A stretch of 64,000 nucleotides of DNA from assembly GCF_003670115.1 (NCBI RefSeq), contig NZ_QQTY01000001.1, positions 992,001 through 1,056,000 of the forward strand, in the 5' to 3' direction. Below the pieces are notes generated by a model, which searched no databases, was not told the origin of the DNA, and saw only the letters and a list, made by a program, of their open reading frames with translations. Positions 21,118 through 38,602 of the stretch are shown here, piece after piece. A program made the position numbers and the translations under genes. This DNA comes from Natronorubrum halophilum (GTDB taxonomy: Archaea; Halobacteriota; Halobacteria; Halobacteriales; Natrialbaceae). The number at the start of each line of letters is the position of its first letter. Position 1 is the stretch's first letter.

Positions 21118-22281
21118 TTACTGCTGTGACGGGTCGCCGAGCGCGACGTCGATTCGGTCGTGGAGCGCGCCGTCTCGGTCCCTGAGGTGGCCCGGCGACC
21201 GGTCATTGTGGACGGCGAGCAGTTCCGAGACGATGCTCATCGCGATCTGGTACGGCGCACCGCCCCCCAGGTCCAGCCCGATCGGCGTGTAGACGCTCGA
21301 GAGCTCCGCCCGCGTGAACGCTCGGTCCTCCTCGTCGAACGCCTCGAGCATCTCCTCGAAGCGTTTGTGGGGTCCCATCAGCCCGATGTAGGGCACCGGC
21401 GACTGCACGAGTTCCTCGAGGGCGATCCGGTCGTCGACGAAGTTGTGGGTCATCACGACGGTGTACGTCCGCTCGTCCAGGTCGAGTACGTCGCGGACTT
21501 CCGCGGGGGACGCCGAGACGACGCGATCCGCGTCCGGGAACTTCTCGCCCGTCGTGACGGCTCCCCGGAATCCGACGACGGTTACCCGGAAGTCGGCCAG
21601 CGTCGCCAGTTCGACGACGGGCGCGACGTCGTGTCCCGATCCGAAGACCACCAGCTCCGGCGGCGCGGCGATCCCGTCACAGAAGAGCGTCACCGCCGAG
21701 CCGGCGACGTCGACGGTGACCGTTTCCGCGTCCCCGGTCGTCGCGAGCGACGAGACGGCGTCCTCGAGTCGAGTCGTCACGTCGTCCGGCCACGTCCCGA
21801 CCAACTCGCGGAACTCGCCGGCACCCTCGTGGTAGTACGCGCGGTCCCCGCGGTCGAACGCGTCGGTCTCGCTGTCGAGGACCGTGACGACCGTCCCGCT
21901 CTCGCCGTCGGCGAACGCGCTCAGCGCGGGCTCGAGCGCGTCGGTGAGCGGCTCGAGGAGGATGTCTATCACGCCGTTACAGCCGATTCCGAGGCCCCAC
22001 ACGTCGTCGTCTCCGCTCAGGTCGAATCGTTCGATACGGGACTGGCCCGATTCGAGGACGGCCGTCGCCAGCGACCGAACCTCGTCCTCGAGACAGCCCG
22101 CGGTGAGGCTCCCCACGCCGTCGCCGTCGCTATCGATGAGCATTTTCGTCCCCGGTCGGCGGTAGGCGCTCCCCTCCACGCGGACGATCGTCGCAAGGAC
22201 CGCTCGCCGGTCCGACCGGCAGGCGTCGTAGATCGCACTGAGAACGGCCGTTTCGGGAACGCTCCAGTCTCGAGAAGACAT
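21118..22281 (-). CDS. XdhC/CoxI family molybdenum-cofactor maturation protein
   Basis: 387 residues from MSSRDWSVPE (ATG 22281). The N-terminal XdhC_CoxI domain shows TIVRVEGSAYRRPGTKMLI and GSLTAGCLEDEV, with the Cys implicated in sulfuration of the cofactor in this family. The C-terminal XdhC_C Rossmann domain shows VVFGSGHDVAPVVELA and YIGLMGPHKRFEEML. It binds and protects the Mo cofactor and helps insert it into hydroxylases. It lies downstream of vwa and moxR on the same strand and faces the Mo-hydroxylase operon, so it probably serves that enzyme. It has its own TATA-like box at 22304..22311. Confidence 0.9.
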   Translation of the reverse strand: MSSRDWSVPETAVLSAIYDACRSDRRAVLATIVRVEGSAYRRPGTKMLIDSDGDGVGSLTAGCLEDEVRSLATAVLESGQSRIERFDLSGDDDVWGLGIGCNGVIDILLEPLTDALEPALSAFADGESGTVVTVLDSETDAFDRGDRAYYHEGAGEFRELVGTWPDDVTTRLEDAVSSLATTGDAETVTVDVAGSAVTLFCDGIAAPPELVVFGSGHDVAPVVELATLADFRVTVVGFRGAVTTGEKFPDADRVVSASPAEVRDVLDLDERTYTVVMTHNFVDDRIALEELVQSPVPYIGLMGPHKRFEEMLEAFDEEDRAFTRAELSSVYTPIGLDLGGGAPYQIAMSIVSELLAVHNDRSPGHLRDRDGALHDRIDVALGDPSQQ

Positions 22282-22303
22282 ACCGTGTGTTGGGCGCTCA
22301 CGC

Positions 22304-22311
22304 AATTATAC
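22304..22311 (-). promoter_or_regulatory. TATA-like box of the xdhC gene
   Basis: GTATAATT on the minus strand, about 27 bp upstream of ATG 22281, in the 88-bp gap after the vwa gene. It suggests xdhC can be transcribed independently. Confidence 0.5.
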
Positions 22312-22369
22312 CTTCTGTCAGTCGAGCGATCCGCGTCCCGTCTCGACGGCCGAACTACCGCGACCGATC

Positions 22370-23674
22370 CTACGGGACACCCGCGCCGACGGTATACTCG
22401 TGGCCGATCCGACCGTGAACGCCGCGAAGCGTGAGCTGTCTGGCGATTTCCTCGAGATCGTCCGATCGGGAAAACCCGAACAGTCCGTCGATGAACGGGG
22501 ACGCGGTCGCGAGTCCCCGGCACGTCGGTTCGTATTCCGCGTCGGTCGCGAGCGGGTTGAGCCAGAGAACGGACGCCGCTCGAGTCGAGAGCCAGGTCAT
22601 CCCCCGCTCGAGCCGATCGAGTTTCCCGACCTCGAGGCCGTCGCTGATCACGAGGACGGCCGTCTCCCGATCGACGGCCGCCGGGTAGTCGGTCCGGAGG
22701 GTCGAAATCGCGTCGCCGATCCGGGTCCCGCCGCCCCACTCGGTCTCGGCGCGCTCGAGGGCGGCGATCGCGCGGTCCGACGTCGGTTCGTCGAACTGCG
22801 CGGTGACCTCCCGCAGGCTGGTATCGAAAAAGAATATTCGAACCGATCGCCAGTCGGCGTGCATCCGCTGGAGCACGCCCAGCAGGAATCCGCGATCGAT
22901 GCTGTCGAGGACCGACCGGCTGACGTCCACGAGAACGACGGCGTTCACCGCCGTCCGGTCGTAGCTCCGTCGCTCGAACTCGAGGACGGTGCCGCCGGTC
23001 CCGAAACTCCGTCGGAGGGTCCGACGGACGTTCAACGCGGCACCCGCCGGTGCGTCTTCGAAGCGTCGACTCCGCTTTCGCCCCAGCGCCCGGCCGATTC
23101 GCTCGAGCGGTTCGCGAACGTCCGCCTCGGGTAGCGTCACGTCGTCGACGGCGACCGGTTCGGAGCGACCGGTTCGGGTCGACAGCGCGCGAAAAACGCG
23201 CCCCTCGTCCCGTTCGGAGTTCGATTCGTCGTCTCCGTCCGCAGTCGCGCTCGATTCCGCTGCGGACGACTGCGTGGATGCCGCCCGCTCGAGTGGCTCC
23301 GGAGACTCGGGGCTTCCGCCGCCCGCGTCCCGATCCGGTTCGCCGGACTGCGGCACTGCGAAGGGCTGCGCCGTGCTGTCGGCGGCGGACGGTTCGTCGC
23401 TTCCATCGCCCGTGAGTCGAGCCCAGAAGGCCGGAAAGAGCCGTTCGAACGCGTCGAGGTCCGATCGCTGGGAGACGAGCGCAGTGCGGAGGGCGGCGCG
23501 GACCGCCGTCTCGTCGGGGTCGGGGAGTTCCGCGACGGCTCGAGCGGCCGTACTGCTCGCCGTCGGCGGGACGGCCGCGCCCTCGGTACGGAGCGCGTCG
23601 GCAAAGCGCACGATCTCGCCGATCACGTGGTCGCGGACGGTATCGAGCCCGCCGGACTCCGGGTTGGTAGTCAC
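22370..23674 (-). CDS. VWA domain protein (CoxE-like)
   Basis: 434 residues from a GTG at 23674 whose GTGA overlaps the stop of the upstream moxR gene. The N-half is helical, with a low-complexity Ser/Glu/Asp linker at about 110-165. The C-half is a von Willebrand A domain with MIDAS motif VVLVDVSRSVLD, a second site GGGTRIGDAISTL and VLVISDGLEVGKLD. The MoxR-VWA pair corresponds to CoxD/CoxE, which mature the metal centre of Mo-dependent hydroxylases in aerobic carboxydotrophs. Confidence 0.88.
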   Translation of the reverse strand: MTTNPESGGLDTVRDHVIGEIVRFADALRTEGAAVPPTASSTAARAVAELPDPDETAVRAALRTALVSQRSDLDAFERLFPAFWARLTGDGSDEPSAADSTAQPFAVPQSGEPDRDAGGGSPESPEPLERAASTQSSAAESSATADGDDESNSERDEGRVFRALSTRTGRSEPVAVDDVTLPEADVREPLERIGRALGRKRSRRFEDAPAGAALNVRRTLRRSFGTGGTVLEFERRSYDRTAVNAVVLVDVSRSVLDSIDRGFLLGVLQRMHADWRSVRIFFFDTSLREVTAQFDEPTSDRAIAALERAETEWGGGTRIGDAISTLRTDYPAAVDRETAVLVISDGLEVGKLDRLERGMTWLSTRAASVLWLNPLATDAEYEPTCRGLATASPFIDGLFGFSRSDDLEEIARQLTLRGVHGRIGHEYTVGAGVP

Positions 23675-24639
23675 TGCGCCTCCGCCCGCTCTCGGGCGTC
23701 GCTGGCCGCCCGAGCGAGGGTCTCGAGCAGATCGTCGTCGATTCGAGAGACGTCTTCGACCTCCTTCAGCAGACACGAGAGCGTTCGATCGATCAACTGC
23801 GGCGATAGCGCGGTGTCCGGATCGCCATCGTCGGTCGCAGCGCTGTCGTCGTCGGTCCCCGATCGGAGCGCGAGGAGCGCGCGGGACCAGTCGAGCGTCT
23901 CCGCGATGCCGGGCTGTTTCAACAGCGGTTCCTCGCGCAGTCGCTGGACGACGCCGCAGATCTCCGCGGCCGTCGGCCCGTCCAGCTCCGGGGCCTTTCG
24001 CCGGACGATCTCTCGTTCCTTCTCGAACGACGGCGGCTCCACGTGGAGGTACAAACAACGTCGCTTGAGCGCGTCGCTCAACCCCCGCGTCCGGTTCGAC
24101 GTGAGGAGGACGATCGGCGGCACCGACGCCTCGACCGTTCCCAGTTCCGGCACCGTCACCTGGAAATCGGAGAGGAACTCGAGGAGCAGCGCCTCGAACT
24201 CCTGATCGGCCCGGTCCACCTCGTCGATGAGGAGGACGGCGGGCCGGTCGCGATCGCCCGACAGCGCCCGGAGCAGCGGTCGCTCGAGCAGGTACTCCTC
24301 GTCGAACACCGACCCATCGTCGGTGACGCCGCGCTCTCCGGCCTGCACCGAGAGGAGTTGCTTCGTGTAGTTCCACTCGTAGAGCGTGTTCTCGGCGGCC
24401 AGTCCCTCGTAACACTGTAACCGAACCAGTTCGGTCTCGAGACCCGCCGCCAGCACCTTCCCCAACTCCGTCTTCCCGCTCCCGGGGTCGCCCTCGATGA
24501 GCAGCGGTTTCCCGAGTCTGAGCGCGAGCAACACCGGGATCACGATGTCGTCCTCGGCGACGTACTCCTGGCGATCGAAGAGCCGTCTGAGATCCGACTC
24601 GGTGAACGTCTCGAACGGGGTCGCGGTCGTCTCACTCAT
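23671..24639 (-). CDS. MoxR-family AAA+ ATPase (CoxD-like)
   Basis: 322 residues from MSETTATPFETFTESDL. Walker A is GDPGSGKTELG (about 50-60), Walker B AVLLIDEVDRADQEFE, sensor 1 PPIVLLTSNRTRGLSDALKRRCL with an arginine-finger region after it. The C-terminal lid is helical. It should remodel the Mo-hydroxylase active site together with the VWA partner, whose GTG start overlaps this stop codon. No clear TATA box was seen upstream. Confidence 0.9.
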   Translation of the reverse strand: MSETTATPFETFTESDLRRLFDRQEYVAEDDIVIPVLLALRLGKPLLIEGDPGSGKTELGKVLAAGLETELVRLQCYEGLAAENTLYEWNYTKQLLSVQAGERGVTDDGSVFDEEYLLERPLLRALSGDRDRPAVLLIDEVDRADQEFEALLLEFLSDFQVTVPELGTVEASVPPIVLLTSNRTRGLSDALKRRCLYLHVEPPSFEKEREIVRRKAPELDGPTAAEICGVVQRLREEPLLKQPGIAETLDWSRALLALRSGTDDDSAATDDGDPDTALSPQLIDRTLSCLLKEVEDVSRIDDDLLETLARAASDARERAEAQ

Positions 24640-24916
24640 GGTGCGCTCCGACGAGCGGGCGTCGTTCCGCGGATCGTCCACCGAGGGCCGCCGATTCTCG
24701 AATCCATTGGGTTCGTGTCGTTCCGAAGCGCTCCAGACGGTAAACGTTCACTCGAGGAGCCACCAACGTTCTGATAGATATTGCCGAGCGTCACTGTCTG
24801 CAACTCCGGTGGCAAAGCTATTTACCTCGATCTGGTATCTAGCACATGTGAGTTCCTGGCACGAGAGTTGGGAACAATACTCGTGGAATTCGAGGCGCAT
24901 ACTCCGAGGTCAATGA
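24640..24916. promoter_or_regulatory. Divergent control region between moxR and coxS
   Basis: 277 bp without a supportable gene. GCTATTTACC at about 24818-24832 is the best TATA-like stretch for the rightward cox operon and would leave a leader of about 60 bases. No obvious leftward TATA box was found. Confidence 0.35.
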
Positions 24917-25396
24917 ATGTCAGAACACAGTATATCGGTAACGGTCAACGGAACGCAACACGAGCTAACCGTCGAACCGCGGACGTTGCTCGTCTCGGCG
25001 CTTCGAGACGAACTCGGCTATACCGGTGCGAACGTCGGTTGTGAGACGGGTCGGTGCGGTGCCTGTACCGTCAGGGAGAACGGCGAGACGATCAAATCCT
25101 GCACCCGCCTGGCGGTCCAGGCCGACGGGGCGGAGATCGAGACGGTCGAGGGACTCGCCGACGACGGTGACCTCTCGGCCCTGCAGGAACGATTTCAGGA
25201 ACACCACGGTCTCCAGTGTGGCTACTGTACGCCGGGGATGCTCATGTCCGCCGACACCTTCCTGCGGGAGAACGACGATCCAAGCCGCGAGGAGATTCGG
25301 GAGGCGATCGAGGGCAACCTCTGTCGGTGTACCGGCTACCAGAACATCGTCGACGCGATCGAGGCCACGGCCGACCAGTTGGGGGAGCAACGATGA
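24917..25396 (+). CDS. Mo-hydroxylase small [2Fe-2S] subunit (CoxS-like)
   Basis: 159 residues. It has a plant-type ferredoxin fold with CETGRCGACTV (three Cys) and the later SCT, followed by the helical all-alpha [2Fe-2S] domain with CGYCTPGM and CRCTGYQNI. Two 2Fe-2S clusters link the Mo site to FAD in xanthine-oxidase-family enzymes. The length (about 160) is the usual one. The stop TGA overlaps the ATG of the large subunit (ATGA), showing tight coupling. Confidence 0.95.
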   Translation: MSEHSISVTVNGTQHELTVEPRTLLVSALRDELGYTGANVGCETGRCGACTVRENGETIKSCTRLAVQADGAEIETVEGLADDGDLSALQERFQEHHGLQCGYCTPGMLMSADTFLRENDDPSREEIREAIEGNLCRCTGYQNIVDAIEATADQLGEQR

Positions 25397-27816
25397 GCGA
25401 CGCGGATGCGGACGGACCGACCGAGACGGTCGGCGAAGTCAGAGCGGACGGGGGATCCAGCGACGACAGCGGCGGAGCCTTCGGTTCCGCGATCGAACGC
25501 GGCGAGGACGTTCCGCTGCTGACGGGTTCCGGGGAGTACACCGACGACATCTCCCTGCGAGGAACGACGCACCTGGCGATCCGGCGGTCCGAGCACGCAC
25601 ACGCGCGCATCGAGGGCGTAGATACCAGTGACGCGGAAGCGATAGACGGCGTGATCGCCGTATTCACCGGCGAGGACGTCGTCGAGAGCGGCGTTCCGAA
25701 CACGATTCCGACCGCGTGGGACCTTCCCGGGCTCGTCCAGCCGCAGTATCGGATGCTCGCCACGGACAAGGTCCGCCACGAGGGAACCGCCGTCGCCGCC
25801 GTCGTCGCGGAGACGCGACACGCGGCCCACGACGCCATCGAACACGTTTCGGTCGAGTACGAGCCGCTCGAGCACGTTACGGACCCCGTCGAGGCCGTCG
25901 AGCGAGACGTGCCGCCGGTTCACGAGGAAGCCGAGGACAACGTGGCCTTCGACTTCGAACTCGGCGACGCGGACGCCACCGACGAGGCGTTCGCCGACGC
26001 CGACCGGGTCGCGAGCGTCGACCTGCGACAGCCCCGCATCATTCCGAACGCGATGGAGCCGCGGGCGGCCCTCGCCGACTGGGAAGAGGCGACGGGGAAA
26101 CTCCGCCTCTGGATGACGAGCCAGAACCCCCACCTGCATCGAATGCTGCTCTCGGCGGGGACGCTCGGGCTCCCGGAGAACAAGATTCAGGTGATCGCCC
26201 CCGAGGTCGGCGGCGGCTTCGGGAGCAAGATCTACCACTACCCGGACGAGGCCGTGACGGCCTGGTGTTCGATGCAACTCGGTCGACCGGTGAAGTGGCA
26301 GGCGACGCGCTCGGAGAGCTACCTGACCGACTGTCACGGCCGAGACCACGTGACGACCGGCGAGATCGCCCTCGACGACGACGGGACGATCCGCGGGGTT
26401 CGCGTCGAGACGCACGCCGGACTGGGCGCACAGCTTTCGCAGTTCGGGACGGCGACGCCATCGTATCTGTACGCGACCGTGCTATCCGGCCAGTACACGA
26501 TCCCCGCCATCCACTGCCGCGTCGTCGGCGCGTTCACGAACACGACGCCCGTCGACGCCTATCGCGGCGCGGGTCGGGCCGAGGGAATATACGTGATCGA
26601 ACGGCTCGTCGACGTCGGCGCGCGGGAACTCGAGATGGATCCGGCCGAACTGCGACGGCGGAATCTCGTCCAACCCGACGAGTTCCCGTACGAGTCGGCG
26701 GCGGCGCTGGTCTACGACAGCGGCGAGTACGAACGCGCGATGGATCTGGCGCTCGAGCACGTCGACTACGACGCGCTGCGCGAACGCCAGCGCGAACTTC
26801 GAGACGAGGGACGGTACCTCGGGATCGGGATCGGCAACTTCATCGAATCGGCCGGCCTCTCGCCCTCGGGGCTGGCGGGCGATCTCGGCGCACAGGCGGG
26901 CGGCTGGGAGAGTTCGATCGTTCGCTTCGACTCGACGGGATCGGTGACGGTCCTCGCGGGAACGGCCGACCAGGGACAGGGCCACCGAACGACCTACGCT
27001 CAGGTCGCCGCGGAGGAACTCGGCGTCTCCGTCGACGACGTCACGGTCGTCGAGGGCGACACGGATCGAATTCCGCAGGGGATGGGGACCTACGGCAGCC
27101 GCAGCGCCTCGGTCGGCGGCGGCTCCATCGCCCGCGGCGCTCGCGAGGTTCGGGAGAAGGCTCGCCGGATCGCCGCCCACCAACTCGAGGCGAGCGTCGA
27201 CGACATCGAGTTCGACGAGGGCGAGTTCCACGTCGCCGGCGCGCCGGATCGCTCGCTGCACATCCAGACGATCGCTCACGAAGCCTACCTCGGCCACGAC
27301 CTGCCCGAGGGGATGGACCCGGGTCTCGAGGAGACCAACTTCTACGATCCGGAGAACTTCACCTACCCCTTCGGCACCCACGTTGCGGTCGTCGAGGTCG
27401 AGCCCGAGACGGGCGAGATCGAGATCGAACGCTACGTCGCGGTCGACGACTGCGGCGAGATCATCAATCCGATGATCGTCGAGGGGCAGGTCCACGGCGG
27501 GATCGCACAGGGAATCGGGGCCGCGCTCTACGAGGGAGCGGCCTACGACGACGAGGGCCACCTCCGAACCCGGCGGATGGACGAGTATGCTGTCCCGCAC
27601 GCGACGCAGTTGCCCGACTTCGAGACGGACAACACGGTGACGCCGAGTCCGCACAACCCGATCGGGGTGAAAGGCGTCGGCGAGTCGGCGACCATCGCGG
27701 CGACGCCGACCGTGGTGTCGGCCGTCGCGGACGCGCTCGAGCCCTTCGGCGTCGAGCACCTCGACATGCCGATCACGCCGGAGTCGGTCTGGCGGGCCAC
27801 GGAGGGTGATCGCTGA
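25393..27816 (+). CDS. Form II molybdopterin hydroxylase large subunit (CoxL-like)
   Basis: 807 residues. Mo-cofactor motifs: VGGGFGSK, GTADQGQGHRTTYAQ, GTYGSRSASVGGG and the C-terminal GVKGVGESATI with the catalytic Glu. The active-site loop reads AYRGAGR (residues 389-395), the form II pattern; form I CO dehydrogenases have AYXCSFR with the Cys-S-Cu centre. CO oxidation is therefore not supported and an aldehyde, purine or aromatic substrate is more likely. The first 35 residues are acidic Ser/Gly-rich. Operon order is S-L-M, with ATGA and TGATG overlaps. Confidence 0.92.
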   Translation: MSDADADGPTETVGEVRADGGSSDDSGGAFGSAIERGEDVPLLTGSGEYTDDISLRGTTHLAIRRSEHAHARIEGVDTSDAEAIDGVIAVFTGEDVVESGVPNTIPTAWDLPGLVQPQYRMLATDKVRHEGTAVAAVVAETRHAAHDAIEHVSVEYEPLEHVTDPVEAVERDVPPVHEEAEDNVAFDFELGDADATDEAFADADRVASVDLRQPRIIPNAMEPRAALADWEEATGKLRLWMTSQNPHLHRMLLSAGTLGLPENKIQVIAPEVGGGFGSKIYHYPDEAVTAWCSMQLGRPVKWQATRSESYLTDCHGRDHVTTGEIALDDDGTIRGVRVETHAGLGAQLSQFGTATPSYLYATVLSGQYTIPAIHCRVVGAFTNTTPVDAYRGAGRAEGIYVIERLVDVGARELEMDPAELRRRNLVQPDEFPYESAAALVYDSGEYERAMDLALEHVDYDALRERQRELRDEGRYLGIGIGNFIESAGLSPSGLAGDLGAQAGGWESSIVRFDSTGSVTVLAGTADQGQGHRTTYAQVAAEELGVSVDDVTVVEGDTDRIPQGMGTYGSRSASVGGGSIARGAREVREKARRIAAHQLEASVDDIEFDEGEFHVAGAPDRSLHIQTIAHEAYLGHDLPEGMDPGLEETNFYDPENFTYPFGTHVAVVEVEPETGEIEIERYVAVDDCGEIINPMIVEGQVHGGIAQGIGAALYEGAAYDDEGHLRTRRMDEYAVPHATQLPDFETDNTVTPSPHNPIGVKGVGESATIAATPTVVSAVADALEPFGVEHLDMPITPESVWRATEGDR

Positions 27817-28703
27817 TGTACACGAACGACTTCGAGTACTACCGCGCCGACAGCGTGGATAGCGCGCTCGAACTGCTCGGCGACCACGACGGTGCCGAAC
27901 TGATCGCCGGAGCCCACGGCCTGCTGCCGCGGATGAAGACCGGCGACGAGTCGCCGCCGGCGCTCGTCGACATCGGGCGGGTGAGCGGGCTCGACACGAT
28001 CGAATCGTCGGACGGCGATAGCGGCGGTGACGGTGACAGCATTTCGGTCGGCGCGCTCGCGACTCACGCCGAGATCGCCGAATCGGAACTCGTCCACGAA
28101 CACGCGACGGCGCTCGCCGACGCCGCGTCCGAGTTAGGGGATCCGCAGGTGCGAAACGGCGGCACGATCGGCGGGAACCTCGCCCACGGAGACGCGCGCT
28201 CGGATCCGCCGGCCGCCCTCCTCGCGCTCGAGGGCTCGCTCGAGGTCCGCGGTCCGGACGGCGAGCGAACGATCGACGCGACCGATCTCTTCGAGGGGCC
28301 GTTCGAGACGGCGGTCGCCGACGACGAGATCGTTACTGCGGTCCGGATTCCGACCGACGACGACGCCGTAAGCGGCTACCGCAAGCGCCGCGATCCGCTC
28401 TCGGGCTACGCGATGGTCGGCGTCGGCGTCTGGCTCCAAATCGACGACGAAACGATCGAGGCAGCCCGGGCTGCCGTCACCGGCGCGACGACGACGCCCT
28501 CGAGACTGCCGGCCGTCGAGGACGAACTCGAGGGGAGTGCAGTCTCCGAGGAGACGATCACTGCGGCGGCAGCCGAGGCCGGCACCACGCTGGAGGCCGA
28601 CGCGTTCGTCTCGGACGTCCGAGCGAGCGCCGAGTACCGCGAGCACCTGCTGACGATCGACACCGAGCGGGCGTTGTACGACGTACTGGACGTCGATCAG
28701 TAA
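27816..28703 (+). CDS. Mo-hydroxylase FAD-binding subunit (CoxM-like)
   Basis: 295 residues. PCMH-type FAD fold: LIAGAHGLLPRMKTG (pyrophosphate loop; usual AGG is AGA here), and NGGTIGGNLAHGDARSDPPAAL, the second FAD loop. The C-terminal CO_deh_flav_C domain follows (YRKRRDPLSGYAMVGV onward). It passes electrons from the Fe-S clusters to a quinone or other acceptor. The start overlaps the large-subunit stop (TGATG). Confidence 0.92.
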   Translation: MYTNDFEYYRADSVDSALELLGDHDGAELIAGAHGLLPRMKTGDESPPALVDIGRVSGLDTIESSDGDSGGDGDSISVGALATHAEIAESELVHEHATALADAASELGDPQVRNGGTIGGNLAHGDARSDPPAALLALEGSLEVRGPDGERTIDATDLFEGPFETAVADDEIVTAVRIPTDDDAVSGYRKRRDPLSGYAMVGVGVWLQIDDETIEAARAAVTGATTTPSRLPAVEDELEGSAVSEETITAAAAEAGTTLEADAFVSDVRASAEYREHLLTIDTERALYDVLDVDQ

Positions 28704-29314: not shown

Positions 29315-29560
29315 TTAGTTGGTCTCGAGAACCAGCAGGTCGTCGCCGGCGTCGACTTCCTGTTCGTTTTCCGCGAGGAATTCGGTGATCGTGCCGTCGG
29401 CCGGCGCCGTGATATCGTGGAAGTTCTTCATGACGCCGACCAGTCCGATGACGTCTCCCTCGGAGACCTCGTCACCTTCGTCGGCGAACGTCGCTTCGTC
29501 CGGGTCCGGTCGCGTGTAGAAGACGCCGGGCATCGGCGATTGGATGTGTTCTGTCGTCAT
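29315..29560 (-). CDS. Stand-alone biotin/lipoyl carrier protein (BCCP)
   Basis: 81 residues, a bare biotinyl domain: SPMPGVFYTRPDP at the start, GDEVSEGDVIGLVGVMKNFHDITAPADGTI in the middle. The presumed biotin-accepting Lys is Lys45 in GVMKNF; most BCCPs have AMKM. It is divergent from pxpB/pxpC/accC over a 187-bp control region, which suggests it is the carrier for that biotin carboxylase. Lipoylation instead of biotinylation cannot be excluded from sequence. Confidence 0.85.
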   Translation of the reverse strand: MTTEHIQSPMPGVFYTRPDPDEATFADEGDEVSEGDVIGLVGVMKNFHDITAPADGTITEFLAENEQEVDAGDDLLVLETN

Positions 29561-29747
29561 TTACGAAATCTTACCAGTAAGTACGACCCCTGAGCATATA
29601 GGTTTTGACAAAGCTATACCACTCCCTACATCATTGTAAACTCTCGCAACCCGCATTGTTTACGAGAAGATGTAATTATCTTAGTGTGTATCCTATCCTA
29701 CTCTAGTCGGCATCTATACAGTGGTAACCGTTCTCCTACACGGTAGG
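29561..29747. promoter_or_regulatory. Divergent control region with GTAAAC/GTTTAC inverted repeat
   Basis: AT-rich by local standards. GTAAAC (29636-29641) and GTTTAC (29658-29663) form an inverted repeat with a 16-base spacer, and both are preceded by CATT. TATA-like stretches are CTATATGC on the minus strand (near 29595-29602) and CATCTATACA (29711-29720) on the plus strand, about 32 bp before pxpB. The repeat sits between the two promoters and is a plausible operator. Confidence 0.5.
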
Positions 29748-30650
29748 ATGAGTGACCGAACGATAACGAGACAGGAGCTTCCGTCTCCGCGGTACGAATA
29801 CGGCGGTGACGACTGGGTGTTCGTCGAACTCGACGAGGCGATGAGCTTCGACGCGAACTTCAAGGCACAGGCGATGACACAGGAGATCCGCCGGAACAGT
29901 CTCGAGGGACTGATCGAGGTCGCGCCGTCGAACGCCTCCTACCTGATCCAGTTCGATCCGGGCGTGTTGCATCCGGACGAACTGATCGAAGAGTTGCGAT
30001 CGCTCGAGGACGAGATCGACGTCTCCGACTACCAGTGGGAGGCGCGGGTGTTCGACATCCCCGTCTTCTACGACGATCCGTGGACCCACGAGACCCTGAT
30101 GGACTTCCGGGAGCGCCACCAGGACCCGGATTCGACGGACCTCGAGTACTCCGCAGAGATCAACGGCTTCGACTCCGTCGAGGCGTTCATCGACCACCAC
30201 GCCGGTGCGCCGCACATGGTGACGATGATCGGGTTCGTCCCCGGACTGCCGTTCTGTTTCCAGATGGTCCCTCGAGACGAGCAGATCGAGGTGCCGAAGT
30301 ACGAACAGCCGCGGACGGCGACGCCGAGTCGCGCGATCGGATTCGGCGGCGCGTTCACCGCCATCTACCCCGTCCCCGGGGCCGGCGGCTACCAGCTCTA
30401 CGGTCGAACGCCCGTCGAAGTACTCGACGTCGATCAGGAGCTGTCGGCCTTCGAGGAATCGATGGTGCTCCCGAACCCGGGAGACATCCTCAACTTCCGC
30501 CGGATCGACCGCGAGGAGTACGATTCGATCCGCGAGGCGGTCGAAGACGGCAGCTACGAGTACAACTACGATCGAGTCGACTTCGAGCCCCAGGCGTTTT
30601 TCGAGGATCCACGCGGGTACAACGCGAAGCTTCTGGAGGTGCTCGAGTGA
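29748..30650 (+). CDS. pxpB: 5-oxoprolinase subunit B-like / AHS1 carboxyltransferase half
   Basis: 300 residues from ATG 29748 (MSDRTITRQ); a GTG 27 bp upstream is less likely. AHS1 (KipI-like) core: HMVTMIGFVPGLPFCFQM, then VPKYEQPRTATPSRAIGFGGAFTAIYPVPGAGGYQLYGRTPVEVLD. In bacteria PxpB works with PxpA and PxpC in ATP-dependent cleavage of 5-oxoproline; the same fold is half of the carboxyltransferase of urea carboxylase. TGATG overlap with pxpC indicates coupling. Confidence 0.88.
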   Translation: MSDRTITRQELPSPRYEYGGDDWVFVELDEAMSFDANFKAQAMTQEIRRNSLEGLIEVAPSNASYLIQFDPGVLHPDELIEELRSLEDEIDVSDYQWEARVFDIPVFYDDPWTHETLMDFRERHQDPDSTDLEYSAEINGFDSVEAFIDHHAGAPHMVTMIGFVPGLPFCFQMVPRDEQIEVPKYEQPRTATPSRAIGFGGAFTAIYPVPGAGGYQLYGRTPVEVLDVDQELSAFEESMVLPNPGDILNFRRIDREEYDSIREAVEDGSYEYNYDRVDFEPQAFFEDPRGYNAKLLEVLE

Positions 30651-31615
30651 TGCGAATTCTCGACGGCGGACTCGTCACGACCGTTCAGGACACCGGCCGC
30701 TACGGCCACTACCACATCGGCATGCCACCCTCCGGCGCGATGGACCAGTTCGCCCACAAAGTCGGCAACTGGCTCGTCGGCAACGACGAATCCGACGCGA
30801 CGCTCGAGATGACCTACATGGGTGCGGACGTCGAGTTCGAGGACGACGCCGTCTTCGCCGTCACCGGCGCGGACATGGAGCCGTCGCTCGAGAACGAGCC
30901 GATCCCGACGTGGACGGCCGTCCGAGCCGAGGCCGGCGACACGCTCAGTTTCGAGTTCGCGACGGAGGGCGCGCGAACGTACCTCGCCGTCGCCGGCGGC
31001 ATCGATATCGAGCCGGTGATGGGGAGCCGGTCGACGTACACCCTGATCGGCATCGGCGGCCACGAGGGCCGCTCGCTCGAGGCGGGCGACGAACTGCCGA
31101 CCGGCGAGCCGGCGGGGGACGCCGACGCGATGGTCGGCACCTCGATCGACGAGGCGGACCGACCGGATTACTCGACCAACGAGATCAACGTCGTGATGGG
31201 GCTCTGTGACTATCGCCTCACCGACGAGGGCCGACAGCGGTTCCTCGACGCCGACTGGAAGGTTTCCGACGAGGCCGACCGGGTCGGCTACCGGTTCGAA
31301 GGGCCCGACATCACCGACATGTTCGAAGAGCGCGAGCAGCCCTTCGGTGCCGGAACCGACGTCACCAACGTCGTCGACCTCGGCTACCCCGTCGGCTCCA
31401 TCCAGATGGCCGGCCAGCCGATCATCCTGATGCGAGACGCCGTGACCGGCGGCGGCTACGCGACCGTCGGAACCGTCGTGAGTCCCGACCGCGGCGCGCT
31501 CTCGCAGTGTCGAACCCACAGCACCGTAGACTTCAACGCCGTCGACGTCGAGGAAGCGCTCGAGATCCGTCGCGAGCGAGACGACCGCCTCGAGCGCATT
31601 CAGAACTCCCTGTAG
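30650..31615 (+). CDS. pxpC: 5-oxoprolinase subunit C-like / AHS2 carboxyltransferase half
   Basis: 321 residues. AHS2 (KipA-like) signature GLVTTVQDTGRYGHYHIGMPPSGAMDQFAHKVGNWLVGN at the start, GARTYLAVAGGIDIEPVMGSRSTY in the middle and GGYATVGTVVSPDRGALSQ near the end. It is annotated in databases as the biotin-dependent carboxyltransferase family as well as PxpC. It starts on the stop codon of pxpB and ends 16 bp before the biotin carboxylase gene, so the three form one operon. Confidence 0.9.
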   Translation: MRILDGGLVTTVQDTGRYGHYHIGMPPSGAMDQFAHKVGNWLVGNDESDATLEMTYMGADVEFEDDAVFAVTGADMEPSLENEPIPTWTAVRAEAGDTLSFEFATEGARTYLAVAGGIDIEPVMGSRSTYTLIGIGGHEGRSLEAGDELPTGEPAGDADAMVGTSIDEADRPDYSTNEINVVMGLCDYRLTDEGRQRFLDADWKVSDEADRVGYRFEGPDITDMFEEREQPFGAGTDVTNVVDLGYPVGSIQMAGQPIILMRDAVTGGGYATVGTVVSPDRGALSQCRTHSTVDFNAVDVEEALEIRRERDDRLERIQNSL

Positions 31616-31631
31616 TCCGAACTTCCAATAG

Positions 31632-32984
31632 ATGATCAACAAAGTACTCGTTGCGAATCGAGGCGAAATCGCGGTTCGCGTGATGCAAGCGGCGACCGAA
31701 CTCGGAATCGAAACCGTAGCCGTCTACAGCGACGCCGACGAGACGGCCAAGCACGTCCGGCGCGCCGACGAAGCCGCGCACGTCGGCTCCTCCGTCGCCG
31801 GCAAGAGCTATCTCGACCAGGAGTCGCTGCTGGAGGCGGCGACCGAAACCGGGGCCGACGCGATCCACCCGGGCTACGGATTCCTCGCGGAGAGCGAATC
31901 GTTCGCCCGCCGGGTCGAAGACTCCGAGTTCATCTGGGTCGGGCCGCCGGCGGACGCGATGGCCGACTTCGGCGAGAAGACCAAGGCGCGGGCCATCATG
32001 GACGAGGCCGGCGTTCCGATCGTTCCCGGGACGGACGAGCCGGTCGACGATCCGTCGCAGGTGCAAGCCTTCGGCGACGAACACGGCTACCCGGTCGCGA
32101 TCAAGGCCGACGGCGGCGGCGGCGGTCGCGGGCTGAAAGTCGTCGCTGGTCCCGAAGAAGCCGAGGAAGCCTTCAAAAACGCCAAACGCGAGGGCGAGGC
32201 GTACTTCGACAACGACGCCGTCTACGTCGAACGCTTCCTCAAGAACCCGCGACACATCGAGGTGCAGGTCATCGGCGACACCCACGGCAACGTGCGCCAC
32301 CTCTACGAACGCGACTGCTCCGTCCAGCGTCGCCAGCAGAAACTCATCGAAGAGACGCCGTCGCCGGTGCTCGACGAGGAGACGCGGGAGGAGCTCTGTG
32401 AAGCCGCCCGATCCGGCGTCGGCGAAGCCGGCTACAGCAACGCCGGAACCGTGGAGTTCCTCTACGAGGACGGCGAGTTCTACTTCCTCGAGGTGAACGC
32501 CCGGATTCAGGTCGAACACACGATCACCGAGGCGGTGACGGGCATCGACATCGTCAAGGAACAGTTCCGCGTGGCCGCGGGCGAGGAGCTGTCGTTCGAG
32601 CAGTCCGCGGTCGACCCCCGAGGTGCGGCGATGGAGTTCCGCATCAACGCCGAGGATCCGTTCAACGACTTTTCGCCGACGCCGGGTACCCTCGAGACCT
32701 ATCGACCCCCCACGGGGATGGGCGTCCGCGTCGACGACGGCGTCGACCAGGGCGACAGGATCAGCCCGTTCTACGACTCGCTCGTCGGGAAGTTCATCGT
32801 CACTGGACAGGACCGAAGGGAAACGCTCGAACGCAGCGAGCGCGTCCTCGAGGAGACGGAGATCGAGGGTATCTCGACGACGATCCCGTTCCACCTCGCG
32901 GTGCTCGAGGACGACGCGTTCGTCGACAGCGAGCACACGACGAAGTACCTCGACGAGCAGTTCGAGGGGCTGGACGAACCCTGA
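31632..32984 (+). CDS. accC: Stand-alone biotin carboxylase subunit
   Basis: 450 residues, the size of a bare biotin carboxylase; haloarchaeal acyl-CoA carboxylase alpha chains are longer because they carry a fused BCCP. ATP-grasp features: [14 protein letters not shown], the Gly-rich loop [28 protein letters not shown] and [24 protein letters not shown], which retains the catalytic Arg. The Biotin_carb_C domain ends the protein. It should carboxylate biotin on the 81-residue carrier encoded at 29315..29560. It is co-directional with pxpB-pxpC. Confidence 0.93.
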
Positions 32985-33017
32985 CCGCACGGCGAGGGTG
33001 ACGATTCGAGGGGCGAA

Positions 33018-33779
33018 TCAGACCAGTTCGTCCAACCGAGCCAGTTCGATCCTCTCCGCCTCGAGTCGGTCGTGGATCGTCTCGAGCAGTTCGACCGAAT
33101 TCGGGCCGTCGCCGTGGATACAGATCGACGACGCGGGGACGTCGATCGTCGTTCCGTCGACGGCCTCGACCTCGCCGCGGGTTGCGATGGAGACGACGCG
33201 ATCCGCGACCAGGTCGGGATCTTTCGGCTCGACCGATTTCTCGACGATCAGGGTTCGGTCAGGGTTGTAGTCGAGGTCGACGTAGCCCTCGAAGACGGCG
33301 TCTAGCTCGTCGTACTCTTGGGCGACCTCGTAGATGTTCATGTCGGTCGCCAGGTAGACGAGGTCGGGGTCGACCTCGAGGATGCCCTCCATGACGGCGC
33401 GGGAGTGCGCCTCGCTCTCGGAGAGCATCGAGTACATCGCGCCGTGGGGTTTGACGTGCTGGACGGTCGCCCCGTGGCGCTTTGCAAAGGCCGTCAACGC
33501 GCCCAACTGGTAGACGACGTAGTCGCGTACTTCCTCGGGCGTCGCGTCCATCGTCCGGCGGCCGAACCCCATCTTGTCCGGGAGACCGGGATGGATTCCG
33601 ATCCCCACGTCGTGTTCCGCTGCGAGTTCGACGGTCTCGCGCATGACGTGCGGGTCGCCCGCGTGGTAGCCGCCGGCGATATTCGCGGAAGTGATGTAGG
33701 GCATCACCTCGCTATCGCGCCCCATCGTCCAGTTGCCGAAACTCTCTCCCATGTCGCAGTTGATATCGATTGCAGTCAT
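33018..33779 (-). CDS. pxpA: LamB/YcsF family 5-oxoprolinase subunit A
   Basis: 253 residues. Family signatures are all present: DINCDMGESFGNWTMG at the N-terminus, SANIAGGYHAGDPHVMRETV, GIGIHPGLPDKMGFGRR and VQHVKPHGAMYSML. PxpA is the YcsF subunit of the prokaryotic ATP-dependent 5-oxoprolinase and has a TIM-barrel fold. It is convergent with accC (33-bp gap), so it has a separate promoter but belongs to the same functional cluster. Confidence 0.93.
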   Translation of the reverse strand: MTAIDINCDMGESFGNWTMGRDSEVMPYITSANIAGGYHAGDPHVMRETVELAAEHDVGIGIHPGLPDKMGFGRRTMDATPEEVRDYVVYQLGALTAFAKRHGATVQHVKPHGAMYSMLSESEAHSRAVMEGILEVDPDLVYLATDMNIYEVAQEYDELDAVFEGYVDLDYNPDRTLIVEKSVEPKDPDLVADRVVSIATRGEVEAVDGTTIDVPASSICIHGDGPNSVELLETIHDRLEAERIELARLDELV

Positions 33780-33914: not shown

Positions 33915-34826
33915 TCAGTACTGGGCGTCGGAACTGCTGTCGGAGTGCGCCCGCACCCACAGTTCGCCGATCCGCGAGAGTCTGGTTCGATAGGATTTGC
34001 CGTGTTCCTCGCGTTCGATGTACCCCTTGCCGCCGGGACCCAGCCGATCGACGTTGTAGATGACTTTCGAGCGAAAGCTGTCGGTGTACTCCTCGTTCAA
34101 CTCGCGGGCGAGCGCCTCGGCGAGTTCCGAGACCGAGTCGAACTCGCCGTCCTCGCCGAGTTTGTAGAGGATGAGTTCCTCGAACGGCTTGACGTTCGAG
34201 AACGTGGCGACCGGTAACTCGACGATGTGACGGCCGTCGATCTCCTTCGCGCCGATCGTCGTTCCGCGCTCGTCGAACTCCGAGAGGAGATCCCGCGCGC
34301 TCTCGAGGCGAGCGTCGATCCGATCGCCGTCGATGGTCGCTTCCTGCGCGCCGAGGTCCTCGAGCAACTCGATCTGTTCGCGCAGTTCCTCGGCGAGTTC
34401 CGTCTCGAGGTACTTCTCGGGGGCGGTGTAGTAGGTGTGGATGCCCTCGCGGTCCTCCTGGCGCTCGACCATCAGGGAGTGGGCGGCGTTGGCGAACGCG
34501 AAACTGACGGTTCGCGGCATCGCGGCGACGTTCACCCAGACCTCGTTGCCCCGGTCGAGTTCGGCGGTGATCAGATCGTAGGCCTGCTCGAAGGCCGCGT
34601 CGTAGTCGTAGACGTCCTCGAGGACGAATCGCTCCGTACTCGCCCCCAGCAGGTTCCGGAAGTCGGTCTCGAGTTTCTCCGAGAGGTGTCTGGAGTACTC
34701 GACGTTGGCTTCGCTCCCGACGGCACCCTCGAGGAGGATGACGCTGTCGACGTCGATCTGATCGCGCACCAGCGGCGCGATCAGCCGGTCGTAATCGAAA
34801 CCGACCGGGACGATGTGGGTTTGCAT
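33915..34826 (-). CDS. HFX_2341/DUF6293-type regulator: CARF-like domain plus winged helix
   Basis: 303 residues from MQTHIVPVGFDYDRL; a TATA box 27 bp upstream supports this start. The N-half has the Rossmann look of CARF domains: HIVPVGFDYDRLIAPLVRD, an acidic middle, then VWVNVAAMPRTVSFAFANAA in the place of the CARF ligand-loop motif. The C-half contains a winged helix (FEELILYKLGEDGEFDSVSELAEALARE...SKVIYNVDRL), then a Lys/Arg-rich wing. I know this family as HFX_2341/DUF6293. It may sense a nucleotide or metabolite and control neighbouring catabolic genes (inference). Confidence 0.82.
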   Translation of the reverse strand: MQTHIVPVGFDYDRLIAPLVRDQIDVDSVILLEGAVGSEANVEYSRHLSEKLETDFRNLLGASTERFVLEDVYDYDAAFEQAYDLITAELDRGNEVWVNVAAMPRTVSFAFANAAHSLMVERQEDREGIHTYYTAPEKYLETELAEELREQIELLEDLGAQEATIDGDRIDARLESARDLLSEFDERGTTIGAKEIDGRHIVELPVATFSNVKPFEELILYKLGEDGEFDSVSELAEALARELNEEYTDSFRSKVIYNVDRLGPGGKGYIEREEHGKSYRTRLSRIGELWVRAHSDSSSDAQY

Positions 34827-34848
34827 ACGTGGTACAGCGGGTCGGTAG

Positions 34849-34857
34849 TTATAAAAA
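34849..34857 (-). promoter_or_regulatory. TATA box of the CARF-like regulator gene
   Basis: TTTTTATAA on the minus strand is centred 27 bp upstream of ATG 34826, an excellent leaderless promoter fit. Confidence 0.65.
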
Positions 34858-34880
34858 CTGCCAGTCTCGCGACCGTTCGG

Positions 34881-34901
34881 GCGGACGGCATCGCCGTCCG
34901 C
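34881..34901. repeat. Perfect hairpin between divergent regulators
   Basis: GCGGACGGC and GCCGTCCGC form a 9-bp perfect stem with a 3-base loop. It lies in the 300-bp gap between the two divergent regulator genes. It is too close to the leftward TATA box to be a terminator for either gene, so an operator or a chance palindrome is more likely. Confidence 0.55.
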
Positions 34902-35094
34902 GCGCCGCTTCGGACGTCGCGAGAACCGACGGATCCGGAGATCGAGAGAACCGAAGCGGTCCACGATCGAACTCGAAGAGACCGCGGCGGGCCGATTCGG
35001 GGGTCTCGGTGGGCCGACTCGTGAACGTGTTCACATCTCGGCGGGCGGGCGCTCGGACGATTCGACGCCCGAAACGCCGGTCTACGGTCTGGTG

Positions 35095-35935: not shown

Positions 35936-37363
35936 ATGGGACCAGATGCCACAGAATCGGATCGAAGCCTCGCCCGCGATATCGGTCCCCTCGGCGCGAT
36001 CGCCACCGTCGTCGCCGGGACGCTCGGGGCCGGGCTGTTCGTCACGCTCGGGACGGCCAGTTCGACGACGGGACCCAGCGTCATCCTGATCATCGCGCTG
36101 TCGGGAGTGATCGCGATGGCCATCGCGATCAACTACAGCTGGCTGGCGACGATCTTTCCCGCGGCCGGATCGACGTACTCGTACGTCACGCGAGTGTTTC
36201 GCAACCGCCTGTTCGGGTTCGTCGCGACGTGGTCGCTCTGGCTGGGGTACATGGCTGCCGTCTCCGTGCTCGCGCTCGGGTTCGGCAGCTACCTGCAGGT
36301 GTTTTACCCCGGCGTCGACCCGCAGTGGGCCGGGATCGTCCTGATCACCGTCCTGTTCGCCGTGAACATGCTCGGAGCCCGCAGATACAGCATCTCACAG
36401 AACATCATCTTCATCCTGCTGATCGTCTCGATACTGGTGCTTGTCGTTCCGGGAACGTTCACCGTCGAGGCCGGCAACTACACGCCGTTCTTCACCGGCG
36501 GGTTCGACGGCGCGCTCGCGGCCGCCGTCCCGCTGTTCTACGCCTACATCGGGATCGCCGTCGCGGGCGAGATCGGCGCCGAGGTCAAGAACCCCTCGAG
36601 AAATCTGCCGCTCGCGATGGCCGGCGGGACGCTCATCCTCATCGCCCTCTACATGTGGACCGCCGCGGTTATCTACGGCGTCGTCGGGGACTACACCGTC
36701 CTCGCGGGCTCTGACCGGCCGCTCTCGACCGCCGCGGAGACGTTCCTTCCGGTGAACGCGACCGCCATCGTCGGCATCGGCGGACTGCTGGCGACCGCCT
36801 CGAGCGTCCACGCCGTGATGGCCGCGGGGATCAAACTGCCGTACTGTTGGGCCTGGGACGAGGTGTTCTCGACGCGGTTTTCGGAGGTCAACGAGCGCTG
36901 GCGGACGCCCCACTGGTCGCTGTTCACCCTGTTTGCGGTCTCGGTCGGCCTGACCTTCTGGACGGGCGGGCTGGACCAGGTGATCGCAATCGCGACGTTC
37001 AGCTACCTGATCGCCTACGGGGCGACGTCGTTCACGGCGATGTACCTCTACCTCGAGCGGCCGGCGATGCGCGAAGAAGCGGCCTTCGATCCCGGCAGGT
37101 GGATCTTCGTTCCGGGGCTGCTCGGGCTCGGCGGCTGCGTGCTCTTGCTGTCCCAGGCCTACCAGGGATCGATGACGGTCTACGTCCCGTGGCTCGCGAT
37201 CGGGCTCGTCGTATTCGGCGCGTACTGGTACAGAGGCAAGCGCTCCGACACGGACGTCGACGCGATCCTCGATACGCTGCCGGGCGTCCCGACCGACGAG
37301 TACAGTCCCGCGATCGCCGACGAACCGACGGTGGCCGACGACGGAACACCCGCAGACGATTAA
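35936..37363 (+). CDS. APC-superfamily amino acid permease
   Basis: 475 residues from MGPDATESDRSL (ATG 35936; an ATG at 35921 adds five). Helix 1 carries the unwound substrate motif VVAGTLGAGLFVTLG. About 12 helices are visible, and helix 6 shows VPLFYAYIGIAVAGEIGAEVKNPSRNLPLA, the conserved APC loop. A hydrophilic tail follows. It probably imports an amino acid or derivative by proton or sodium symport; the neighbouring 5-oxoprolinase-type and M20 genes suggest oxoproline or an acylated amino acid (inference). Confidence 0.9.
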   Translation: MGPDATESDRSLARDIGPLGAIATVVAGTLGAGLFVTLGTASSTTGPSVILIIALSGVIAMAIAINYSWLATIFPAAGSTYSYVTRVFRNRLFGFVATWSLWLGYMAAVSVLALGFGSYLQVFYPGVDPQWAGIVLITVLFAVNMLGARRYSISQNIIFILLIVSILVLVVPGTFTVEAGNYTPFFTGGFDGALAAAVPLFYAYIGIAVAGEIGAEVKNPSRNLPLAMAGGTLILIALYMWTAAVIYGVVGDYTVLAGSDRPLSTAAETFLPVNATAIVGIGGLLATASSVHAVMAAGIKLPYCWAWDEVFSTRFSEVNERWRTPHWSLFTLFAVSVGLTFWTGGLDQVIAIATFSYLIAYGATSFTAMYLYLERPAMREEAAFDPGRWIFVPGLLGLGGCVLLLSQAYQGSMTVYVPWLAIGLVVFGAYWYRGKRSDTDVDAILDTLPGVPTDEYSPAIADEPTVADDGTPADD

Positions 37364-37387: not shown

Positions 37388-38602
37388 ATGAGCAAACGCT
37401 CTCACACCCCGGCAGACGGTATCGACCACGACGAGACGATCGCGTTGCTACAGGATCTCGTCCGGATACGGAGTCCGTACTTCGAGGAGGCAGAAATCGT
37501 CGAGTTCGTCTACGACTGGCTCGAGCAGGAGGGACTCGACCCGGAGTACCAGCCGGTGAGCGAGCCCGAGATCACCGGCTACGAGGGGAACAACGTCCTC
37601 GCGCGGCTCGAAGGCACGGATCCCGACGCCCCGACGCTGCTGTTGAACGCCCACGTCGACACGGTCCAGTTGGTCGAGGGGTGGGACGAGGACCCGCTCT
37701 CGGGACGGCTCGAGGACGGGAAGTGCTACGGGCAGGGCGCTTGCGACATGAAAGGCGGGCTCGCGGCGGTGCTCGTCGCGTTCCGGGCGCTCGCGGACCT
37801 CGAGCTTCGAGGCGACGTCGTCCTCGCGGCGGTCGTCGACGAGGAAGGCCCCTACGGGCTCGGCGCGAATCAGCTGCTCAGGGACGGTATCACGGACGAG
37901 TGCGACGCGGCCATCGTTACCGAGCCCGGCCCGATCCTCGCCCAGTCGGAACTCGAGAATCCGGCGCTGTTGCTCGGGGCGCGCGGACGATTTCTCTACG
38001 ACATCACGGTTCGGGGACGCGCAGCCCACGGCTCGCAGCCCGAACGAGGACGGAACGCGGTGGTCGACGCCGGCGCGCTGGCCGGCGCGCTCGCGGCGAT
38101 GGACGTCGGCTCGCATCCGAAACTTGGCGACGGCTCTGTCTGTCCGCTATCGATCGAAGGCGGTGGGGAGACGCTCTCGGTCCCCGAGCGCTGTCGCCTG
38201 TTGGTCGACCGCCACGTGGTGATCGGCGAGGACGCCGACTCCGTGCTGGCCGACGCCGAGCGCGTCGTCGCCGATCTCGGTCTCGACTCGGCGGTCGAAG
38301 TCGGGTTCCGCGAGGCACCCGCGACAGACGTTCGCTACGGACCGTACGTCACTGACGAGAATCACCCGCTAGTGCGTTCCTTGCGGACGGCCGCCGAGTC
38401 GGTCGCGGGACGACCTCCCGCGATCGGGTACTTCTCGAGCGTGGGCGACTTCAACTACTTCGGCCACCGCGCGGGCCTCCCGACGGTGATCGTCGGCCCG
38501 GACGGCGAGAACATTCACGGTGCTGGCGAGTTCGTCTACACCGACGAGGTCGTCGAGGTAACCCGCATTCTGGTCGACGCGGTGGCCGAGTTCGCGGGGT
38601 AG
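37388..38602 (+). CDS. M20 family metallopeptidase / ArgE-DapE-like deacylase
   Basis: 404 residues, 24 bp after the permease. Zinc-site segments: LLNAHVDTVQ (first His and Asp), YGQGACDMKGGLAAVL (bridging Asp), VVDEEGPYGLGA (catalytic Glu pair) and the C-terminal IHGAGEFVY (last His). The dimerisation domain is inserted in the middle (about 190-310). It removes acyl groups from N-acyl amino acids or cleaves small peptides. Coupled to the permease it would process the imported substrate. Confidence 0.9.
   Translation: MSKRSHTPADGIDHDETIALLQDLVRIRSPYFEEAEIVEFVYDWLEQEGLDPEYQPVSEPEITGYEGNNVLARLEGTDPDAPTLLLNAHVDTVQLVEGWDEDPLSGRLEDGKCYGQGACDMKGGLAAVLVAFRALADLELRGDVVLAAVVDEEGPYGLGANQLLRDGITDECDAAIVTEPGPILAQSELENPALLLGARGRFLYDITVRGRAAHGSQPERGRNAVVDAGALAGALAAMDVGSHPKLGDGSVCPLSIEGGGETLSVPERCRLLVDRHVVIGEDADSVLADAERVVADLGLDSAVEVGFREAPATDVRYGPYVTDENHPLVRSLRTAAESVAGRPPAIGYFSSVGDFNYFGHRAGLPTVIVGPDGENIHGAGEFVYTDEVVEVTRILVDAVAEFAG

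Follow-up and report, generated by a model that had tools for sequence, protein, structure and literature searches.

In a 64,000-nucleotide stretch of Natronorubrum halophilum DNA (hereafter the window; contig NZ_QQTY01000001.1, positions 992,001 to 1,056,000), we found a gene cluster that probably encodes a biotin-dependent lactam-opening system, a reading to which we assign a probability of roughly 0.6. Its core consists of five genes coding for a biotin carboxyl carrier protein (BCCP), the two carboxyltransferase (CT) halves AHS1 and AHS2, a stand-alone biotin carboxylase (BC) and a PxpA-family hydrolase of the LamB/YcsF type. A preliminary description of the window had named the same five genes, and all of them were confirmed as intact, correctly identified and correctly placed. 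It had further proposed that they form a complete biotin-dependent carboxylase for an amide or lactam, with PxpA finishing the reaction, as a variant of 5-oxoproline breakdown. The core of this idea stands; what had to be revised are the assumed substrate and how far the system extends. The cluster is larger: the coxS, coxL and coxM genes of a molybdenum hydroxylase (24917-28703) lie directly upstream of the core, and CoxD-, CoxE- and XdhC-type genes (21118-24681) come before coxS, none of which appeared in that description.

AHS1, AHS2 and BC form a plus-strand run with only a few bases between the genes; the BCCP gene diverges upstream and the PxpA gene converges downstream. The BCCP carries Met44-Lys45 within a VMKNF motif, Lys45 being the predicted biotinylation site, and an xVMK[NTS]F-type motif was present in nearly all of the 125 relatives collected. 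A BC, a carrier with the MK motif and a CT, the parts by which a biotin-dependent carboxylase is recognized, are encoded together, and the genome encodes two members of the biotin/lipoate ligase family. In seven bacterial loci (L113, L115, L116, L122, L128, L135 and L140), the biotin transporter BioY was found in or beside the module. Judged from these sequences, it is quite likely that the five genes specify a biotin-dependent amide or lactam carboxylase working with PxpA as follow-on hydrolase. This part of the earlier proposal held up, because the CT falls into the urea-carboxylase clade (see below), BioY is linked to the module, and acyl-CoA carboxylation has a separate BC and CT. The last point concerns the BC itself, which NCBI models call an acetyl-CoA carboxylase subunit. 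If it served acyl-CoA carboxylation, its placement beside AHS1, AHS2 and PxpA would be incidental. However, the genome has two BC genes, the second of which is fused and lies near a PF01039 CT, and the BC of the module stays with its partners through gene rearrangements. An acyl-CoA role was therefore disfavored, and its probability is close to negligible. The preliminary description had regarded such a role of accC as fatal to its proposal, an objection that is thus partly answered.

The CT halves do not score as PxpB and PxpC. AHS1 reached 80.8 bits against the PxpB model TIGR00370 (cut-off 145.55) and 109 bits on the urea carboxylase model, and AHS2 reached 210.5 bits, far below the PxpC equivalog cut-off of 500 bits. 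The best PDB match of AHS1 was yeast urea carboxylase (3va7), with an alignment running nearly end to end. In a maximum-likelihood tree, the window AHS1 and its kin joined the fused urea carboxylases (100/99) and were separate from canonical PxpB, although the canonical PxpB rows are long-branched and the finer order among them is uncertain. The general base of urea amidolyase is K1605 (PMC5770610), and Lys184 of the window AHS1 aligns with it. Lysine was found at this position in all 49 haloarchaeal AHS1 proteins and in 82/82 main AHS1 copies of the wider set, whereas arginine occupies it in 19/19 canonical PxpB proteins (from 20 control loci) as well as in PH0987, KipI and a mycobacterial protein. 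By this classification, the "PxpB" of the window is a urea-carboxylase-type CT.

A simple rule that lysine marks biotin-linked systems and arginine biotin-free ones was also tried and failed, as 6 of the 20 canonical loci contain BC and BCCP and the mycobacterial PDB entry 9yx5 has an Arg-type AHS1. As a separate observation, Arg-type PxpB clusters with adjacent BC and BCCP (L220, L231, L233 and L237) possibly represent a second biotin-linked branch.

The relationship to urea carboxylase raises the question of whether the module is simply a split urea carboxylase for nitrogen supply. The sister position of the CT clade and the common general-base lysine would suit this explanation, as would an amidase near the module in 11 haloarchaeal loci. 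However, the constant partner is LamB/PxpA and not allophanate hydrolase. No allophanate hydrolase above the TIGR02713 cut-off was found in the genome, the adjoining amidase scores far below that cut-off, and two module genomes (L216 and L217) also have a urea-carboxylase-like fused protein. Urea as the substrate thus found no support in the allophanate hydrolase search of the genome itself, and this explanation is very unlikely. The equivalog cut-off for full-length urea carboxylase (TIGR02712, 1303.85) was not reached by any single chain. An amidase-family match in the Natronorubrum halophilum genome (L240, C2:1067390-1068658) contains an in-frame TGA.

Conservation of the grouping was then evaluated. 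In 47 of the 391 Halobacteria genomes screened, a PF02682 gene exceeded the family cut-off, and the AHS1 loci were taken with their flanks. All five genes occurred within about 10 kb in 42 of the 49 haloarchaeal AHS1 loci, in six gene orders, and two of the seven loci short of the full set are contig ends. A genome-contig scan gave at least 587 related stretches. The reading covered the best 80 of them, a sample biased to the query. Among these 80, the module recurs in four bacterial phyla, including Rubrobacter and other Actinomycetota, many Bacillota, Chloroflexota, and Alpha- and Betaproteobacteria. Of the bacterial loci, 50/61 likewise have the complete set inside about 10 kb. On a rhizobial plasmid, the five genes stand in a single run with an ABC transporter. 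The five genes are not grouped by chance, as they stay together in both sets despite rearrangement. In 60 loci of about 20 kb, BCCP was near AHS1 in 59, PxpA in 58 and BC in 51, whereas BC and BCCP were each nearby in only 6 of 20 canonical PxpB control loci. Fisher tests were applied to these linkage counts, but the loci are related by descent and the p-values overstate the evidence.

Some loci depart from the five-gene set. Two (L066 and L068) have AHS1, AHS2 and BCCP without BC or PxpA inside about 10 kb. At L064, genome G352 has an additional AHS1/AHS2 pair that lacks BC, BCCP and PxpA; the full module is present in that genome too. In Bacilli, a second AHS1/AHS2 pair lies downstream of the module (L136, L143, L144, L148, L150, L152, L154, L162, L171 and L133), forms its own clade in the tree, and often stands beside a PrdR-like sigma-54 regulator. 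This arrangement suggests two substrates sharing one BC, BCCP and PxpA.

The hydrolase of the module was examined with regard to 5-oxoproline. The window PxpA has the PF03746 domain and the LamB fold of the LamB/YcsF lactam utilization family, and it passes the PxpA subfamily cut-off. Its structural model (predicted local distance difference test score, pLDDT, 88.8) gave 1v6t, named a lactam utilization protein, as top fold match. Canonical and module PxpA proteins have in common, among others, Asn6, Asp8, Glu11, Asn32, His38, Asp41 and His62 as well as Lys109, His111, His223 and Asp225 (PH0986 numbering). The shared polar, metal-site-like residues are thus kept in module PxpA, while Arg179, Arg168 and Cys35 are changed. 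Arg179 was invariant in the 20 canonical PxpA proteins but is Glu in 45/45 haloarchaeal module copies (Glu180 in the window protein) and Thr, Glu, Ala or Asp in nearly all bacterial ones, never Arg. A natural reading of this loss is that the substrate lacks the carboxylate found in 5-oxoproline.

A biotin-linked 5-oxoprolinase, in which the module would carboxylate 5-oxoproline and PxpA would release glutamate, should be weighed against these data. The PxpA family is present, and the only PF02682 gene of the genome is not a canonical PxpB, nor is any of the recovered haloarchaeal AHS1 of the canonical type, so that the module could fill this role. Against it, 17 of the 20 bacterial module genomes carry a second PF02682 copy above 160 bits, which is typical of canonical PxpB, and the copies inspected resemble ordinary PxpB. 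Six HyuA/OplA-type genes in the haloarchaeal genome could in principle serve 5-oxoproline, and glutamate as product would not call for the GABA (gamma-aminobutyrate) transaminase or succinate-semialdehyde dehydrogenase (SSADH) seen at bacterial loci. We thus regard this alternative as unlikely. The assignment to 5-oxoproline in the preliminary description is probably wrong, given the failed PxpB and PxpC cut-offs, the second canonical-type copies, the lost PxpA arginine, and a molybdenum hydroxylase, GABA transaminase and SSADH as recurrent partners in bacteria.

The hydroxylase upstream of the core belongs to form II of the CO dehydrogenases, a form defined by the S-L-M gene order and the AYRGAGR motif (PMC9765009). 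The physiological substrate of this form is believed to be something other than CO (PMC6794299). The window enzyme shows both features. The motif [AS]YRGAG[RK] was found in 45/45 large subunits examined (the window and 44 relatives) and the S-L-M order in nearly all. A true CO dehydrogenase was rejected because of the active-site motif in alignments with PDB structures and relatives. After CO dehydrogenases, the closest solved structure was quinoline 2-oxidoreductase, whose product is a cyclic amide. The genome has just two large subunits of the coxL kind, and the probability that one of the two lies no more than 5 kb from the module by chance is about 0.4%. A coxL gene was near the module in 11/49 haloarchaeal and 29/61 bacterial loci, and the layout varied: Bacilli have AHS1-AHS2-BCCP-BC-PxpA-coxS-L-M as a single run, Brevibacillus has coxS-L-M ahead of AHS1, and Janibacter has coxS-L-M-PxpA-AHS1. 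The CoxD/MoxR-like AAA ATPase class also recurs beside the module in Bacilli. From this recurrent neighborhood, the form II hydroxylase is likely to act in the same pathway as the biotin module. The positions of all genes are collected in Table 1.

Table 1. Genes of the biotin module and of the adjoining hydroxylase in the window (aa, amino acids; E, E-value; ORF, open reading frame; CODH, CO dehydrogenase)
Feature	Position	Strand	Evidence
BCCP	29315..29560	-	81 aa, stand-alone; PF00364 (Biotin_lipoyl) E 5.5e-16; NCBIfam NF005457 above cut-off
AHS1 (CT subdomains C/D), urea-carboxylase type	29748..30650	+	PF02682 (CT_C_D) E 2.5e-41; predicted general base Lys184
AHS2 (CT subdomains A/B), second CT half	30653..31615	+	PF02626 (CT_A_B) E 1.6e-86; TIGR00724 above cut-off
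Stand-alone BC, 450 aa	31632..32984	+	PF00289, PF02786 and PF02785, all three BC domains
LamB/YcsF (PxpA-family) metal-dependent hydrolase	33018..33779	-	PF03746 E 2.7e-87; Glu180 at the Arg position of canonical PxpA
coxS-like 2Fe-2S subunit, form II molybdenum hydroxylase	24917..25396	+	PF01799/PF00111; adjacency conserved
coxL-like molybdopterin subunit	25474..27816	+	PF20256/PF02738; AYRGAGR (form II), not the Cys-containing CODH motif
coxM-like FAD subunit	27816..28703	+	PF00941/PF03450
CoxD/MoxR-like AAA ATPase, likely maturation factor	23671..24681	-	PF07728
CoxE-like VWA domain, likely maturation factor	22487..23089	-	PF05762 3e-38, ORF 22370-24415
XdhC/CoxI, molybdenum cofactor maturation	21118..22305	-	PF13478/PF02625

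Further genes lie next to the module. An HFX_2341-family transcriptional regulator (33915-34964), retained in several relatives, adjoins PxpA and is a candidate regulator. An amino acid permease and an ArgE/DapE-type M20 hydrolase follow downstream (35984-37363 and 37388-38602) and show no sign of conservation with the module.

Based on these data, a pathway can be proposed. The form II "CO dehydrogenase" would convert a cyclic imine or N-heterocycle into a lactam by hydroxylation. BC would then charge the biotin of BCCP with CO2 at the expense of ATP, and AHS1/AHS2 would transfer the carboxyl group onto the nitrogen of the lactam, in the way urea carboxylase acts on urea. The activated N-carboxy-lactam would be hydrolyzed by LamB/PxpA, and the resulting carbamate would shed CO2 to give an omega-amino acid, a substrate for class III aminotransferase. 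The chemical model, by analogy, is the pair of urea carboxylase and allophanate hydrolase, which carboxylate a nitrogen and then cleave the amide.

The neighboring genes bear on the lactam in question. Four of the five bacterial class III aminotransferases scanned passed the GABA transaminase cut-off (L122, L147, L162 and L170), and two of the three adjoining bacterial dehydrogenases passed that of SSADH (L147 and L170); at L137, both the aminotransferase and the dehydrogenase scored below the respective cut-offs. In bacteria, 2-pyrrolidinone, which would yield GABA, is the likeliest lactam. As the substrate in general, we propose 2-pyrrolidinone only tentatively, at somewhat less than even odds.

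When the haloarchaeal neighbors were clustered without bias, 19 loci proved to have a class III aminotransferase and 14 an Lrp-type regulator; an amidase occurred at 11 loci, a dihydropyrimidinase at five and a dehydrogenase of the methylmalonate-semialdehyde dehydrogenase (MMSDH) type at four. The aminotransferase, dihydropyrimidinase and MMSDH would also fit pyrimidine or hydantoin degradation, in which a cyclic or ureido amide would be the target of the module, with dihydropyrimidinase beside it, and the product beta-alanine would pass through class III aminotransferase and MMSDH. Yet neither dihydropyrimidinase nor MMSDH lies near the module in the window, and dihydropyrimidinase was not seen at bacterial loci, where GABA-type partners occur instead, making this explanation decidedly improbable.

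Several observations weigh against a lactam-opening system in general or 2-pyrrolidinone in particular. Neither a GABA transaminase nor an SSADH was found in the window, and no GABA transaminase above the cut-off was found in the genome, which weakens the case for 2-pyrrolidinone in Natronorubrum halophilum; nor is the class III aminotransferase of haloarchaea a clear GABA transaminase. At some haloarchaeal loci, dihydropyrimidinase, amidase and MMSDH point to a different substrate. The hydroxylase is missing from most haloarchaeal loci and should thus be seen as an optional component. The Natrononativus module (L053/L093) has no BCCP nearby; the carrier may be encoded elsewhere or the module may be decaying. 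The canonical PxpB loci with BC and BCCP, together with 9yx5, mean that association with biotin enzymes does not depend on the lysine, and a carboxylate-binding role of PxpA Arg179 is a guess. We found no demonstrated activity for any enzyme of this AHS1 clade, and a literature search with thin coverage of subscription journals found no publication joining these parts.

A broader proposal follows, to which we give slightly less than an even chance: that module-linked form II "CO dehydrogenases" are lactam-forming hydroxylases, and that the module is an additional, ATP-driven means of lactam opening by N-carboxylation and LamB hydrolysis, present from haloarchaea to several bacterial phyla and misannotated. 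Automatic annotation as acetyl-CoA carboxylase and 5-oxoprolinase across the at least 587 matching stretches may thus hide a catabolic route for stable cyclic amides. For form II CO dehydrogenases, with their unsettled physiological substrate, lactams would also be a concrete, testable class of candidates. If the proposal is true, carboxylation as an activation step in amide cleavage extends beyond urea.

Among known systems, urea carboxylase (KlUC/KlUA and bacterial Uca) shares with the module BC, BCCP, the same two-part CT, the same general-base lysine and a sister CT clade. However, urea carboxylase is one chain and works with allophanate hydrolase, whereas the module has four separate chains and LamB/PxpA. 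The prokaryotic 5-oxoprolinase PxpABC has homologous AHS1, AHS2 and LamB/YcsF subunits; unlike it, the module has its CT in another clade, Lys in place of Arg, constant BC and BCCP, and a PxpA that has lost Arg179, and it coexists with canonical-type copies in bacterial genomes. The mycobacterial structure 9yx5 resembles the module in combining, in one PDB entry, AccA3 (BC-BCCP) with split "allophanate hydrolase" subunits 1 and 2, but its AHS1 is of the Arg type and its carrier is a shared acyl-CoA carboxylase subunit. With form II CO dehydrogenase (coxSLM) the hydroxylase shares gene order and motif, and here it is tied to a putative lactam module. A further comparison is offered by lamA/lamB of Aspergillus nidulans, a fungal system. 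Its LamA resembles urea amidolyase, its LamB is of the same family as module PxpA, and we know of no molybdenum hydroxylase for it. Lactam catabolism through lamA/lamB is co-regulated with GABA transaminase, the regulator also controlling gatA (PMC8016842), and ycsF is related to lamB (PMC3412718); both the lactam role and this kinship fit the model of carboxylation followed by cleavage.

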